A stretch of 64,000 nt of DNA. Source: Roseomonas sp. HF4. Lineage in GTDB: Bacteria > Pseudomonadota > Alphaproteobacteria > Acetobacterales > Acetobacteraceae. The notes beneath the pieces were generated by a model. The model was given only the letters and a program-made list of their open reading frames with translations. It was not told the DNA's origin and ran no database searches. Location of the stretch: positions 124,001 through 188,000 of the forward strand of contig NZ_STGD01000009.1 in NCBI RefSeq assembly GCF_005222755.1, written 5' to 3'. Positions 37,991 through 61,077 of the stretch are shown piece by piece; positions within the stretch are counted from its first letter, which is position 1, and every line of letters starts with the position of its first letter. Made by a program: the position numbers and the translations under genes.

Positions 37991-38407
37991 GGCGTCAGGC
38001 GGCCTGTAAGCCGGGTTCTGTCGTGGCCTTGCGGCCACGGACGGCCATTCCTCTGGAGCCCGCATCGCTGCGGGCTTCGCGCGGCCAACCCGGGCGGAAG
38101 GGCGGAACCGCCCCTGCGACAGCGCCCGAAGGCACCTCGCCGTCCGCCCCTATTCGGCCTTGCTCCCGGTGGGGTTTGCCGTGCCGCCGCCGTTGCCGGA
38201 AGCGCGGTGGGCTCTTACCCCACCGTTTCACCCTTGCCGCGGGGTGTCGCCCCGAGGGGAGCCACGCCGCGGCGGTCTGTTCTCTGTGGCACTTTCCCTG
38301 GGGTCGCCCCCGCCGGTCGTTGACCGGCACCGTGGTTCCGTGGAGCCCGGACTTTCCTCCAGCGCGGGATCGCTCCCGCGCCAGCGGCCGCCCAGCCGTC
38401 TGACGCC
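37991..38407 (-). ncRNA. rnpB: RNase P RNA (bacterial type A)
   Basis: The minus strand carries the hallmark GAGGAAAGTCCGGGCTCC near the 5' end, the conserved CR-IV-like GGGTGAAACGGTGGGGTAAGAGCCCACCGC region (in outline), AGGGAAAGTGCCACAGAGA and the 3' segment AGAACCCGGCTTACAGGCC. Terminal sequences GGCGTCAG (5') and CTGACGCC (3') pair as helix P1, which fixes the ends to within a few bases at 417 nt. It is the catalytic RNA that matures tRNA 5' ends. It lies just upstream of, and on the same strand as, the dcw cluster. Confidence 0.95.
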
Positions 38408-56762: not shown

Positions 56763-57727
56763 CCCGACGGGCGGCGCTCGCCGCCGGCCTGGCCCTGCCC
56801 GCCGCCGGCGCGCTAGCCCAGGCGCCGTGGCCGACGCGGCCGATCAGCATGATCGCGCCGCTTGCGGCGGGTTCGTCCGTCGACATCCTCGCGCGGCTGG
56901 TGGCCGAGCAATGGTCGCAGCGCCTGGGCCAGCCGGTGCCGGTCGAGAACCGCCCCGCGGCCAACGGCACGCTCGCGCTCGGGCAGGTCGCGCGCGCGCC
57001 GGCCGACGGCTACACCATCACCGTGACGGGGCAGACCAGCGTCGCCTTCAACCCGGTGCTCTACCCGTCCATCCCCTATGATCCGCTGCGGGACTTCGCC
57101 TATGTCGCGCGCATCGCGGGCATCTCGAACGCCCTGGTGGTGCGGACCGCCTCGCCCATCCGCTCCTTCGCGGACCTGCTGGCGGCGGCGCGGGCCGAAC
57201 CGGGGAAGCTCACCTATTCCTCGGGCGGCGTCGGCACGACGCACCACATCTCCTCGGCCATGCTGGCGCAGCAGGCGCGGCTCGAGATGGTGCACGTGCC
57301 CTATCGCGGCGCCGCGCAGGGCATCCTGGCCGCGCAGAGCGGGGAGGTGGACTTCGCCTATTTCAACATCTCGACCCTGCTGCCCGGCATCCGGCAGGGC
57401 GCGTTCCGGCCGCTGGCCGTGACCTCGGCCGAGCGCTCGCCCTTCCTGCCCGACGTCCCGACGATGAAGGAACTCGGCTTCCCCGACTACGAGATGACCA
57501 CCTGGGTCGCGATCGGGACGGTCGCGGCCGTGCCGGCGCCCATCCTGGCGCGCATGGTCGAGGTGAGTGAGGCGATGCTCGCCGACCCGGCCGTGCAGCG
57601 GCGCCTGGTGGAACTGGGCTTCGAGTTGCTGCCGCCGATCCCGCAATCGCAGATGCTGGACTTCGTCCGGGCGGAGAAGGAACGCTGGGAGCCGGTGATC
57701 CGCGCCTCGGGCGCGCGGCGGGAGTAA
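56732..57727 (+). CDS. Bug-family periplasmic binding protein (TctC-like)
   Basis: A 331-residue periplasmic protein with a Tat-like signal ([20 protein letters not shown]) and the Bug fold: ISMIAPLAAGSSVDILARL, ENRPAANGTLALGQVARAPADG, VPYRGAAQGILAAQSGEVD and LPDVPTMKELGFPDYEM. Start: GTG 56732, six bases after GGGAG and inside the 3' end of the DUF3604 gene. No TctA/B genes adjoin it. The coupling suggests it senses or binds a substrate or product of the DUF3604 protein. Confidence 0.9.
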   Translation: MDQPRIPAALTRRAALAAGLALPAAGALAQAPWPTRPISMIAPLAAGSSVDILARLVAEQWSQRLGQPVPVENRPAANGTLALGQVARAPADGYTITVTGQTSVAFNPVLYPSIPYDPLRDFAYVARIAGISNALVVRTASPIRSFADLLAAARAEPGKLTYSSGGVGTTHHISSAMLAQQARLEMVHVPYRGAAQGILAAQSGEVDFAYFNISTLLPGIRQGAFRPLAVTSAERSPFLPDVPTMKELGFPDYEMTTWVAIGTVAAVPAPILARMVEVSEAMLADPAVQRRLVELGFELLPPIPQSQMLDFVRAEKERWEPVIRASGARRE

Positions 57728-57753
57728 AACGCAGGCGGCCCGGCGCGGCCGCC

Positions 57754-58266
57754 TCAGCCGTCCTTGGCCGGCTTGCGGCGGAAGGCATCGAGGCTGACGA
57801 CCTGCGCCGGGGCGGGCGCTTCACCGGGCACCGGCTCGGGCACCGCCTCGGTCTCGGCCGCGTCCTCGAATTCCGTCGTCGCGGCGCCGGTCACGGGGAA
57901 GCGCAGGCCGAAGCGCACATGCGGGTCGTGGAACATGGTCAGCGCGCCGAAGGGCACGACAAGGCGAGACGGCGCGCCGCCGAAGAACAGCGTGACCTCG
58001 AAGCGTCCAGCCTCCCGGTCCACCCGCAGGTCCTCGAACTGGTGCTGCAGGACGATCGTGATCTCCTGCGGGTAGCGCGCCTTCAGGTGGCCCGGCACGC
58101 TGGTACCCGGGTGGTCGGTCCGGAAGGTCAGGTAGAAATGATGCTCGCCCGGCAGCCCATTGGCGACGACGCTCTCGAGCGCACGGAGCGCGACCTCGCG
58201 CAGGGCCTCCTCGGCCCAGGCTTCATAGGGCAGCAGGCTTTCGGGCGGTGCGGCGTCGTCGCTCAT
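57754..58266 (-). CDS. sspB: ClpXP adaptor SspB (alphaproteobacterial type)
   Basis: A 170-residue adaptor that delivers tmRNA-tagged proteins to ClpXP. The substrate-binding domain (about 1-120) shows HHFYLTFRTDHPGTSVPGHL, YPQEITIVLQHQFEDL and FEVTLFFGGAPSRLVVPFGAL. A flexible linker leads to the C-terminal ClpX-binding segment (AQVVSLDAFRRKP), as in SspB-alpha. The gene is directly downstream of ssrA on the same strand, putting tag and adaptor together. Confidence 0.95.
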   Translation of the reverse strand: MSDDAAPPESLLPYEAWAEEALREVALRALESVVANGLPGEHHFYLTFRTDHPGTSVPGHLKARYPQEITIVLQHQFEDLRVDREAGRFEVTLFFGGAPSRLVVPFGALTMFHDPHVRFGLRFPVTGAATTEFEDAAETEAVPEPVPGEAPAPAQVVSLDAFRRKPAKDG

Positions 58267-58273
58267 GGGGCCA

Positions 58274-58322
58274 TCTAGAGCAATATCCGGCCGGATGAAA
58301 TCACCTGATCGGAGATTGCTCC
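58274..58322. repeat. Palindromic element between ssrA and sspB
   Basis: AGAGCAATATCCG and CGGAGATTGCTCC form a 13-bp stem with one mismatch and one wobble, around a loop with GATGAAATCACCTGAT. It begins 8 bases before the sspB start codon. It could end the tmRNA transcript or be a short interspersed palindrome. Confidence 0.6.
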
Positions 58323-58367
58323 AGCGCCTTGTGCCTTCCGGCCGGCGCGCATCGTCCCGGGCGGGGC

Positions 58368-58682
58368 CTCAGGACGGCAAGGCGTCGGGTGCCAGGGGAA
58401 GTGGGGGGCTTCTGTTGCCCGGTGCCCCCCGGACCGCGCTTACCTATCTCTAGGCAGCGAGCGCCACGGTCTCGCGACCGTTATCATTGGCACTTGTGAT
58501 TTGGTCCGATGACGGCGGTACCATGCCGGGCAAAAGACGGATCTTTACCGCGCGCGTCGAGCCTGTTTCGCCCCCATCTGCCGCTGATAAGGCGGGGTTG
58601 ATGGTGGAGGCGCCGGGTACCGCCCCCGGGTCCGCAACGCTTATTCCATACGCCGTTTATCGCCATAGTCACCGAGGTGACG
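58368..58682 (-). ncRNA. ssrA: Two-piece (permuted) tmRNA
   Basis: Read on the minus strand, the acceptor piece comes first: after a GTCACC/GGTGAC hairpin it reaches GGACCCGGGGGCGGTACCCG (T arm) and ends CGCCTCC-A-CCA at 58602. A short intervening sequence follows, then the coding piece starts GGGGGCG at 58575, which pairs with CGCCTCC as a 7-bp acceptor stem. The coding piece carries the tag frame and then pseudoknot-like GGGGGGC/GCCCCCC. This is the permuted alphaproteobacterial order. tmRNA rescues stalled ribosomes. Outer ends are approximate. Confidence 0.93.
58450..58491 (-). other. tmRNA proteolysis tag reading frame (ANDNGRETVALAA)
   Basis: Resume codon GCC at 58491-58489 and thirteen codons give Ala-Asn-Asp-Asn-Gly-Arg-Glu-Thr-Val-Ala-Leu-Ala-Ala, then TAG (58450-58452). 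The AND start and ALAA end are the usual SspB- and ClpX-recognised termini. Confidence 0.95.
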
Positions 58683-58686
58683 CGAT

Positions 58687-58693
58687 TTATATA
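58687..58693 (-). promoter_or_regulatory. Candidate -10 of the ssrA promoter
   Basis: TATATAA on the minus strand lies 5 bases before the hairpin that opens the acceptor piece and about 35 bases after the amidohydrolase stop. No good -35 is seen at the expected spacing. Confidence 0.5.
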
Positions 58694-58726
58694 GCGTATC
58701 CCCGCTGGGATATCGAGGGCCAAGCG

Positions 58727-59884
58727 TCACCGGGGCAGGCCGCGCTCCACGATGCGCGCATAGAGTGCGGCGCCGTAGGGGATGGCCTCGTCGTTGAAGG
58801 CGTAGCGCGGGTTGTGCGGCATCGCCCCGGGACCGTTGCCGACATGGATGTACGCGCCCGGGACGCGCTCCATCATGAAGGAGAAATCCTCGGAGCCCAT
58901 GCCGGGCGGGTTGTCGCGCGCGACCTTCTCCGCGCCGACCAGGTCGGCGGCGGCCTCGGCGAAGGCCTCGGTCTCGCGCGCATCGTTGATGGTGGGGGCG
59001 AAGATCAGGCGCCACTGGACCTCGGCCGTGGCGCCGAAGCCCGCGGCGACGCCGGCCGCGACGCGACGCATCCCATCCTCGATCTGCGCGCCGACCTCGC
59101 GCGTGAAGAAGCGCGCGGTGCCGGCGATCGTCGCCGTCTCGGGGATGACGTTGTACGCCTCACCCCCCAGCACCTTGGTCACGCTGACCACCGCCGGGTC
59201 GCGGGGCGAGAGGGTGCGGCTGACGATGGACTGCAGTGCGGTCGTGACGTGGCACGCGGCCAGCACGGGGTCGATGGACGCCTCCGGCCGCGCGCCATGC
59301 GCGCCCTTGCCGGTCAAGGCGATGTCGAAGAAGGCGCCGCCCGCCGCCGTCGGCCCGCTGCGAATGCCGTACTCGCCGAGCGGCATGCCTGGCCGGTTGT
59401 GCATTGCGTAGATTGCATCGCAGGGGAAGCGTTCGAACAGCCCGTCCGCCAGCATGGCCAGCGCGCCGCCGCAGCCTTCCTCGCCCGGCTGGAAGATCAG
59501 GTGGACGATGCCGTCGAAGTTGCGGCTTTCGGCCAGGTACTTCGCTGCACCCAGCAGCATGGTGGTGTGCCCGTCATGGCCGCAGGCATGCATCACGCCC
59601 TTCACCGTGCTGCGGTGGGGCATGTCGGCCGGTTCCTCGATGGGCAGCGCGTCCATGTCGGCGCGCAGGCCGATCGCGCGGTTGCCGGAGCCGTTGCGCA
59701 GCACGCCGACCACGCCCGTGCCGCCCACGCCCCGATGCACCTCGATCCCCCAGGAGTCCAGCAGCTCGGCAACGCGCGCGGCGGTGCGGTGCTCGGCCAT
59801 GCCGAGTTCGGGGTGGGCGTGGAAATCCTGGCGGATGGCCGCGAGCTGGGCGTGGTCGCGGCGGATGGCGTCGAGGGGGGACAT
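58727..59884 (-). CDS. M20 family amidohydrolase (hippurate hydrolase-like)
   Basis: A 385-residue zinc amidohydrolase of the M20D type. It starts IRQDFHAHPELGMAEHRTA, with GLRADMDALPIEE, VMHACGHDGHTTMLLGAA (metal Cys/His), FQPGEEGCGGALAML (Glu pair) and late GMGSEDFSFMMERVPG. Such enzymes hydrolyse N-acyl amino acids such as hippurate or indole-acetyl conjugates in the cytoplasm. It lies 34 bases upstream of the candidate ssrA promoter and is preceded by a repeat-rich gap. Confidence 0.93.
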   Translation of the reverse strand: MSPLDAIRRDHAQLAAIRQDFHAHPELGMAEHRTAARVAELLDSWGIEVHRGVGGTGVVGVLRNGSGNRAIGLRADMDALPIEEPADMPHRSTVKGVMHACGHDGHTTMLLGAAKYLAESRNFDGIVHLIFQPGEEGCGGALAMLADGLFERFPCDAIYAMHNRPGMPLGEYGIRSGPTAAGGAFFDIALTGKGAHGARPEASIDPVLAACHVTTALQSIVSRTLSPRDPAVVSVTKVLGGEAYNVIPETATIAGTARFFTREVGAQIEDGMRRVAAGVAAGFGATAEVQWRLIFAPTINDARETEAFAEAAADLVGAEKVARDNPPGMGSEDFSFMMERVPGAYIHVGNGPGAMPHNPRYAFNDEAIPYGAALYARIVERGLPR

Positions 59885-60135: not shown

Positions 60136-61077
60136 ATGGCGCTGACGCCCGAACAGCAGCAGGAGATCGACGCCGCGCGCGCCGCCGAGGGCCGCACGCG
60201 CCGCCCGAGCGTGCCCGCGCTGGAGGCGATGCTTTTCCAGGCGATCCCCGTGCTCGACCACGGTTTCGTCCGTGTCGTGGACTACATGGGCGACGACGCC
60301 GCGATCGTGCAGGCGGCGCGCGTCTCCTACGGGCGCGGAACGCGGGCCGCTAACGAGGACCGCGGGCTGATCCGCTACCTGATGCGCCACCGCCACTCGA
60401 CGCCCTTCGAGATGTGCGAGATCAAGTACCACGTGAAGCTGCCGATCTTCGTGGCACGGCAGTGGATCCGCCACCGCACGGCGAACGTGAACGAGTATTC
60501 CGCGCGCTATTCCATCCTCGACCGGGAATTCTACATCCCCGCGCCGGACCACCTGGCGGCGCAATCGGCGGTGAACCGGCAGGGCCGCGGCGATATCCTG
60601 CAGGGTGCCGAGGCGGCCCGCGTGCTCGACCTGCTGCGCGAGGACGCGACCCGCAACTACGACCACTACCTCGAGATGCTGAACGAGGATGATGCGGGCG
60701 CGCCGCGCGATCCGGGCCGGCAGGGCCTGGCGCGGGAACTGGCGCGCATGAACCTCACGCTCAACGCCTATACGCAGTGGTACTGGAAGACCGACCTGCA
60801 CAACCTGCTGCACTTCCTGAGCCTGCGCGCCGACGCGCATGCGCAGTACGAGATCCGCGTCTATGCCGAGGCGATGCTGGAGACGGTCAAGGCCTGGGTG
60901 CCGATGGCGCACGACGCCTTCCGCGACTACCGGCTCGGCGCCGTCACGCTGTCGGCGCAGATGATGGCGATCGTCCGGCGGATGCTGGCCGGCGAGGTCG
61001 TGACGCAGGAGGGCTCGGGCCTGTCGAAGCGCGAATGGCGCGAGTTGATGGAGACGCTGGGCCGCGATGGAGCCTGA
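60136..61077 (+). CDS. thyX: FAD-dependent thymidylate synthase
   Basis: A 313-residue flavin enzyme making dTMP from dUMP. The ThyX motif RHR-x4-NE-x-S-x-R is intact as [14 protein letters not shown]. Also seen are [21 protein letters not shown] and the C-terminal [12 protein letters not shown]. The start at ATG 60136 has AGGGGG five bases upstream. It overlaps the next gene by 11 bases. No thyA is seen in the window. Confidence 0.97.

Follow-up and report, generated by a model that had tools for sequence, protein, structure and literature searches.

Why the gene for the RNA that tags unfinished proteins in trans-translation stands next to the gene for the adaptor that reads the tag, and from which promoter the second gene is transcribed, are the questions raised by a locus in the window, the 64,000-nucleotide stretch of Roseomonas sp. 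HF4 DNA analysed here. SspB is established as the protein that ferries ssrA-tagged proteins to ClpXP, and in this genome the tmRNA gene ssrA immediately precedes sspB, both on one strand, as the original prediction had it. The order of the two genes is kept in most of the sampled Alphaproteobacteria that carry both on one contig, and there is about an even chance that the window's sspB depends mainly on read-through, its transcript starting at the ssrA promoter and ending at a predicted terminator. The genes and the elements at their ends are the following.

58400..58720, minus strand: permuted tmRNA gene ssrA (Rfam RF01849, 249.7 bits; RF04321, 150.8 bits), laid out as acceptor half, intervening stretch and coding half, with a model span that takes in the upstream -10 region
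58689..58694, minus strand: likely ssrA -10 box CTATAT, predicted by counting off the RF01849 alignment
58450..58491, minus strand: tag reading frame ANDNGRETVALAA and stop (ARAGORN coding part 206-247)
58267..58399, minus strand: ssrA-sspB spacer of 133 nt, from the end of the tmRNA model to the sspB start codon
57754..58266, minus strand: sspB, encoding an alphaproteobacterial SspB-type ClpXP adaptor of 170 aa (PF04386, E 7.1e-40)
57733..57754, minus strand: intrinsic-terminator-like hairpin with a GCGTTTTACT tail at the sspB stop (terminator scan)

The RF01849 match is full-length (model positions 1-355) and far above the curated score of 50, and ARAGORN places a permuted tmRNA* at 58359-58696, with a tag frame, ANDNGRETVALAA, in which the ClpX-type tail is present. 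The first alanine of the tag is supplied by the charged tmRNA, and the peptide form, which is the predicted ligand of the window's SspB, is AANDNGRETVALAA. In its permuted gene, the position of the tag in the coding half, the ANDN start and the LAA-type end, the RNA is like the two-piece tmRNA of Alphaproteobacteria (RF01849; Keiler et al., 2000, as cited in an excerpt of PMC3985003), with nothing unusual about it, the GRET in the middle of the tag being one of many variants. Processing of a two-piece tmRNA is shown for Orientia in an excerpt of PMC7335160.

The product of sspB reaches 137 bits against Pfam PF04386 (cut-off 27), matches none of the NCBIfam models and has structural relatives in PDB entries 2nys, 2qas and 2qaz, the last two of which we take to be Caulobacter SspB. 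Its VVSLDAFRRK-type C-terminal end, presumably the ClpX-docking motif, is strongly conserved among 38 aligned proteins. The window protein belongs to the same family as the Caulobacter-type SspB over most of its length and shares this conserved end, differing by an N-terminal extension that ends in LLPY, as in its family; binding is predicted, and by analogy the product would deliver ssrA-tagged proteins to ClpXP. The Caulobacter protein is the subject of Lessner et al., 2007 (as cited in an excerpt of PMC3985003), and further excerpts assign SspB a role in tag degradation in Caulobacter (PMC8119881) and perhaps in Alphaproteobacteria too (PMC3985003), and describe the ClpX N-domain as bound by SspB (PMC5422525). 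A term search did not find SspB in the main texts of PMC11915505 and PMC4131195.

Both the gene order and its conservation are firm observations. Among 150 genomes searched in the window's family (Acetobacteraceae, an assignment made partly by inference), the RNA and the protein were each found in 144 and both in 143, with the two genes on different contigs in 19 and on one contig in 124. In all but two of these 124 genomes sspB lies downstream of ssrA, on the same strand and within 10 kb, so that the synteny in Acetobacteraceae on which the original prediction had been made to depend proved strong (122/124). The gap is at most 300 nt in 90 of the 122 ordered genomes, 301-1000 nt in 16, 1-5 kb in 15 and 5-10 kb in one, and the two exceptions are one genome with sspB upstream and far away and one with sspB on the other strand. 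One of the genomes at 1-5 kb (G148) owes its place there to a second, incomplete sspB match at the end of a contig, its full match lying on a different contig, and weak second tmRNA matches in two genomes (G137 and G040) were excluded from the order counts.

The same order extends over the class. The RNA was found in 176 and the protein in 168 of 190 genomes searched, and co-occurrence was drawn from the 150 genomes in each list, which gives at least 130 genomes with both genes, three of the 130 being from the window's family. Among the matches listed, the genes lie on different contigs in 12 of the 130 and on one contig in 118, and sspB is downstream, on the same strand and within 10 kb in 111 of the latter. 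For these 111, again among the matches listed, the gap is at most 300 nt in 91, 301-1000 nt in seven, 1-5 kb in 11 and 5-10 kb in two; the seven exceptions comprise two genomes with the genes more than 10 kb apart, four with sspB on the other strand and one with sspB upstream. A further route, through 80 named loci found by protein, led to a same-strand upstream tmRNA in 65, with less than 450 nt of upstream sequence in four of the 15 misses. At these loci gaps were measured from the motif CAACAGAA, present in 70 of the 80; in Azospirillum brasilense about 30 nt separate the tmRNA from sspB. Reckoned plainly from its recurrence in relatives, the adjacency of ssrA and sspB is beyond chance. A neighbourhood of smpB and ssrA also occurs in many bacteria; common to both arrangements is a partner gene of trans-translation adjoining the tmRNA gene, whereas the partner in the window is a proteolysis adaptor and lies downstream of ssrA. 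Searches of open-licence PMC literature brought up no mention of the ssrA-sspB order, and Lessner et al., 2007 may state it.

At six loci (L218, L224, L225, L213, L220 and L223) 2-3 kb with open frames separate the two genes, strand and order being kept. On the other side of ssrA, the window has a gene for an M20 amidohydrolase, upstream on the same strand, and beyond it, on the opposite strand and still close to ssrA, the gene for ThyX, an FAD-dependent thymidylate synthase (60136-61077, plus strand). In Pelagibacter, according to an excerpt of PMC2704228, the tmRNA sits between thyX and a COG4696 gene; thyX is thus beside the tmRNA there too, which makes a wider old neighbourhood possible. 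A plasmid search matched the upstream hydrolase region, none of the matches listed covering more than 18% of the query. The window also holds an RNase P RNA of class A (37991-38403, minus strand, 266 bits).

How sspB is transcribed in the window depends on the spacer, in which three further elements were located.

58391..58396, minus strand: CCTGGC, by its position the likely remnant of the -35 of congeners (CTTGGC)
58275..58324, minus strand: imperfect palindrome, a copy of a dispersed repeat, with a predicted RNA hairpin
58273..58278, minus strand: CTAGAT, the -10-like box of congeners, 6 nt before the start codon

A genus search took in 35 genomes, including the window's own, and the locus was readable in 29 of the 34 congeners. 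The spacer measures 35-41 nt in all 29, the window genome alone having 133 nt, and the roughly 93 extra nucleotides are absent from every congener read. Fifteen of the 29 congeners, which belong to the subclade of the window genome, carry a CTTGG-like box (CTTGG in 11, CTTTG in two and CTTCC in two) and a TAGAT-like box; mean pairwise identity over the 14 distinct spacers is 0.85 and 0.89 in the boxes, respectively, and 0.48 in the stretch between them. The second box stands 6-8 nt before the ATG, and the boxes are 17-18 nt apart in 13 of the 15 and closer in the two CTTCC members. The variant in the other 14 congeners is of the CTTTC type, the ATG following after 10 nt. In the window, CCTGGC and CTAGAT are 112 nt apart.

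That the spacer is palindromic, as had been claimed, holds with a qualification: the palindrome is present but imperfect, its 24-nt arms being 75% complementary. With the copy in the window counted, the repeat to which it belongs occurs at nine places in the genome (E <= 0.001), two of the nine being one copy on both strands, and it matches somewhere in 14 of the 34 congener genomes, although in none of the 29 congener ssrA-sspB spacers read. The remainder of the extra stretch, beyond the palindrome and its edge, gave no match with an E-value below 0.02. The palindrome is like REP and other dispersed palindromes (excerpt of PMC3733652) in being short and present in several copies per genome. 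Compared with the congener sequences, the window genome's spacer is derived and its palindromic part is a lineage-specific insertion. As the palindrome is absent from all the congener spacers read, it does not behave as a conserved control element of the gene pair, and this interpretation was rejected in favour of a dispersed repeat. In the predicted fold of the whole spacer the palindrome forms a hairpin (z -1.95), and a fold as good was reached by 8 of 200 shuffled sequences. A promoter scan of 57600-58850 found no promoter-like site with a consensus of the E. coli type, and a terminator scan of the same region gave a single hairpin, that at the sspB stop, which is weak given a shuffle mean of 0.5; none lies in the ssrA-sspB spacer. 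No Shine-Dalgarno (SD) motif is seen before the sspB start codon, for which reason a leaderless message fits better than one with a long leader.

In relatives, spacers were compared at the loci with the shortest gaps (the best 80 of 88 in the class and the best 80 of 90 in the family, with gaps of up to 300 nt), so that the lengths lean short; start codons were picked by a rough script, which left two class loci unusable and placed a few starts, such as that of G154, obviously farther downstream than they should be. The median gap of these shortest-gap loci is 71.5 nt in the class (78 usable loci) and 88 nt in the family. In 28 of the 78 usable class loci no more than 45 nt lie between the tmRNA and the start codon, which makes read-through likely there. 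An SD-like 4-mer is present in 15 of these 28 and absent from 13; where so short a gap also accommodates an SD, a separate promoter would have to sit within the conserved end of the tmRNA. Family spacers have a different signature, CTT-N20-CTA[TG] (17 nt between the hexamers), found in 18 of 79, where shuffles that preserve base content only gave 0.5 on average and 4 at most, and where related genomes are not independent; other spacings of CTT and CTA[TG] occur in at most 3 of 78. This -35/-10-like pair at 17-nt spacing points to an sspB promoter that is probably common in the family, so that many relatives would transcribe sspB separately. The class set has no spacing peak for this motif, which was therefore rejected as class-wide. 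Upstream of ssrA itself, a [CT]TTG...[CT]TAT pair peaks at a spacing of 17 in 17 of 80 family loci.

Between the genes, terminator-like sites occur at 16 of 80 family loci, where shuffles average 5.6, and at 7 of 78 class loci, where they average 4.6; behind sspB the counts are 11 of 79 (shuffle mean 4.8) and 5 of 80 (7.0), respectively, so that in the family such sites are no more frequent there than between the genes. The stem finder took loops of 3-8 only, which leaves the 3' hairpin of the tmRNA, with its longer loop, unscored. These counts lend no support to a scheme in which a terminator follows the pair but does not divide it and, being mixed, were rejected as proof of either way of transcribing sspB. 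Runs of TTTT within 12 nt past the tmRNA end, seen at 14 of the 80 class loci and at 6 of the 80 family loci, are possibly terminators. The word GTCGCATCCC is repeated in four family spacers (L159, L163, L164 and L174) and GTCGCA is found in 11 of 80, against 1.3 in shuffled sequences; these repeats suggest a second promoter type or a control site for sspB. No single rule for all members, whether read-through or a separate promoter throughout, fits.

The co-regulation or co-transcription that had been proposed for the pair is thus upheld in part. Strong synteny speaks for it, as does a window spacer free of terminator-like sites with a (weak) one behind sspB, and against it stand the promoter-like pair with its 17-nt peak and the excess of terminator-like sites in family spacers. 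Judged from the genomes compared, ssrA and sspB are likely expressed together; transcription is likely shared in lineages with short gaps, and shared transcription is plausible in the window genome. In the evenly balanced case of read-through, transcription from the ssrA promoter would continue into sspB and end at the predicted terminator behind it, cleavage of the precursor would release both tmRNA pieces, and the sspB message, once separated by the cut at the 3' end of tmRNA, would carry the palindrome hairpin on its 5' side. Ancestrally, a compact -35/-10-like pair, with no ribosome-binding motif seen, would have given the leaderless sspB message predicted in one congener subclade. In the window genome, the extra nucleotides with the dispersed repeat would then have pushed the boxes apart to their present distance, by which the sspB promoter would be weakened and read-through left. 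Alternatively, the window's sspB may keep its own promoter, assembled from the old -10 CTAGAT and a new -35-like stretch derived from the palindrome, with separate starts for the two genes and a leaderless message. This is the less probable course, although a substantial one, as the -10-like box is retained, still 6 nt before the ATG, the start codon lacks an SD, the family shows its promoter spacing peak, and the best pair in the window scores 8 of 11, which equals the other congener subclade (6-8). However, the -35 in the window reads TTTCAT, while scores of 9-11 are reached by the 13 congeners whose box is CTTGG or CTTTG, on the same consensus, which comes from their own subclade, and the promoter scan, weak as its E. 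coli-type consensus makes it, finds none.

It is unlikely that descent and the inertia of gene order suffice to explain the neighbourhood, with regulation not shared, because the order recurs in genomes sampled evenly across the class, and the gaps are often very short. Gene order can nonetheless persist where rearrangement is rare, and 1-5 kb separate the genes in 15 of 124 family genomes (G148 on its partial match) and in 11 of 118 class genomes among the matches listed. A functional terminator or attenuator formed by the palindrome is highly improbable: a hairpin fold is predicted in the RNA, but the T-run that should follow is missing, the scan gives no terminator match, 29 of 29 congener spacers lack the palindrome, and further copies lie elsewhere in the genome. 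The palindrome is accordingly not favoured as a terminator.

The pairing of tag and adaptor can also be followed in the tags themselves. The 160 loci at which both genes are present yielded 152 tags, of which 144 start with ANDN (66 of 73 in the class and 78 of 79 in the family); the remaining eight seem long or unusual in their frame. Among 58 members of an order of small genomes, SspB was found in none and tmRNA in 56, and the best 30 loci of these 56 genomes gave 29 tags, none of them starting with ANDN (15 ANDELALAA, seven ANNKLALAA, three ANESYAIAA, two ANNKVALAA, one ANDDLALAA and one ANDKFALAA). In a search of 20 sspB-less class genomes, nine tmRNAs exceeded the cut-off and eight tags were called, one of which (L232) is also among the 29 of the small-genome order. 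Three of the eight start with ANDN, in one genome that is 99% complete (G178) and two that are 79-81% complete. Tag start and adaptor presence look linked in these sequences, with exceptions, and the pattern agrees with a relaxation of the tag upon loss of its reader, in a comparison that is phylogenetically weak, with few independent losses. The co-evolution of tag and adaptor suggested in the original prediction therefore gains from the contrast between 144 of 152 tags beside sspB and 0 of 29 in the sspB-less order, but the argument then offered for it, that the window tag lacks an acidic stretch in its middle by comparison with E. coli, fails. The E. coli tag is not known to have an acidic stretch in its middle, and 143 of the 144 ANDN tags hold none or one acidic residue there, which makes GRET ordinary; the loss of such a stretch was rejected. 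The setting of the Pelagibacter tmRNA in the excerpt of PMC2704228 would fit the absence of sspB, if the small-genome order is the Pelagibacter group.

A wider account for Alphaproteobacteria as a whole may be offered tentatively, as a possibility that falls short of even. The tmRNA would be the 5' half and the sspB message the 3' half of one unit, in which a single cut would mature the 3' end of tmRNA, create the 5' end of the sspB mRNA and tie the supply of adaptor to the capacity for tagging; promoters in the gap would be gained and lost, the palindrome in the window would have split such a promoter and returned sspB to ssrA, and the ANDN site would have decayed where sspB was lost. Were read-through true, one promoter would set both the tagging RNA and the reader of the tag in a large part of a bacterial class, with a stable RNA and an mRNA coming from a common precursor. 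The ANDN start of the tag set against the presence of sspB would provide a natural test of tag-adaptor co-evolution. Unusual tags are found at three sspB-less loci, L231 (G282), L228 (G321) and L229 (G197), which carry ANQNNAFVVACNDNAPIAIAA, AKRDYAEYALAA and AKSDYAEYALAA, respectively, and are possibly separate cases of adaptor loss.
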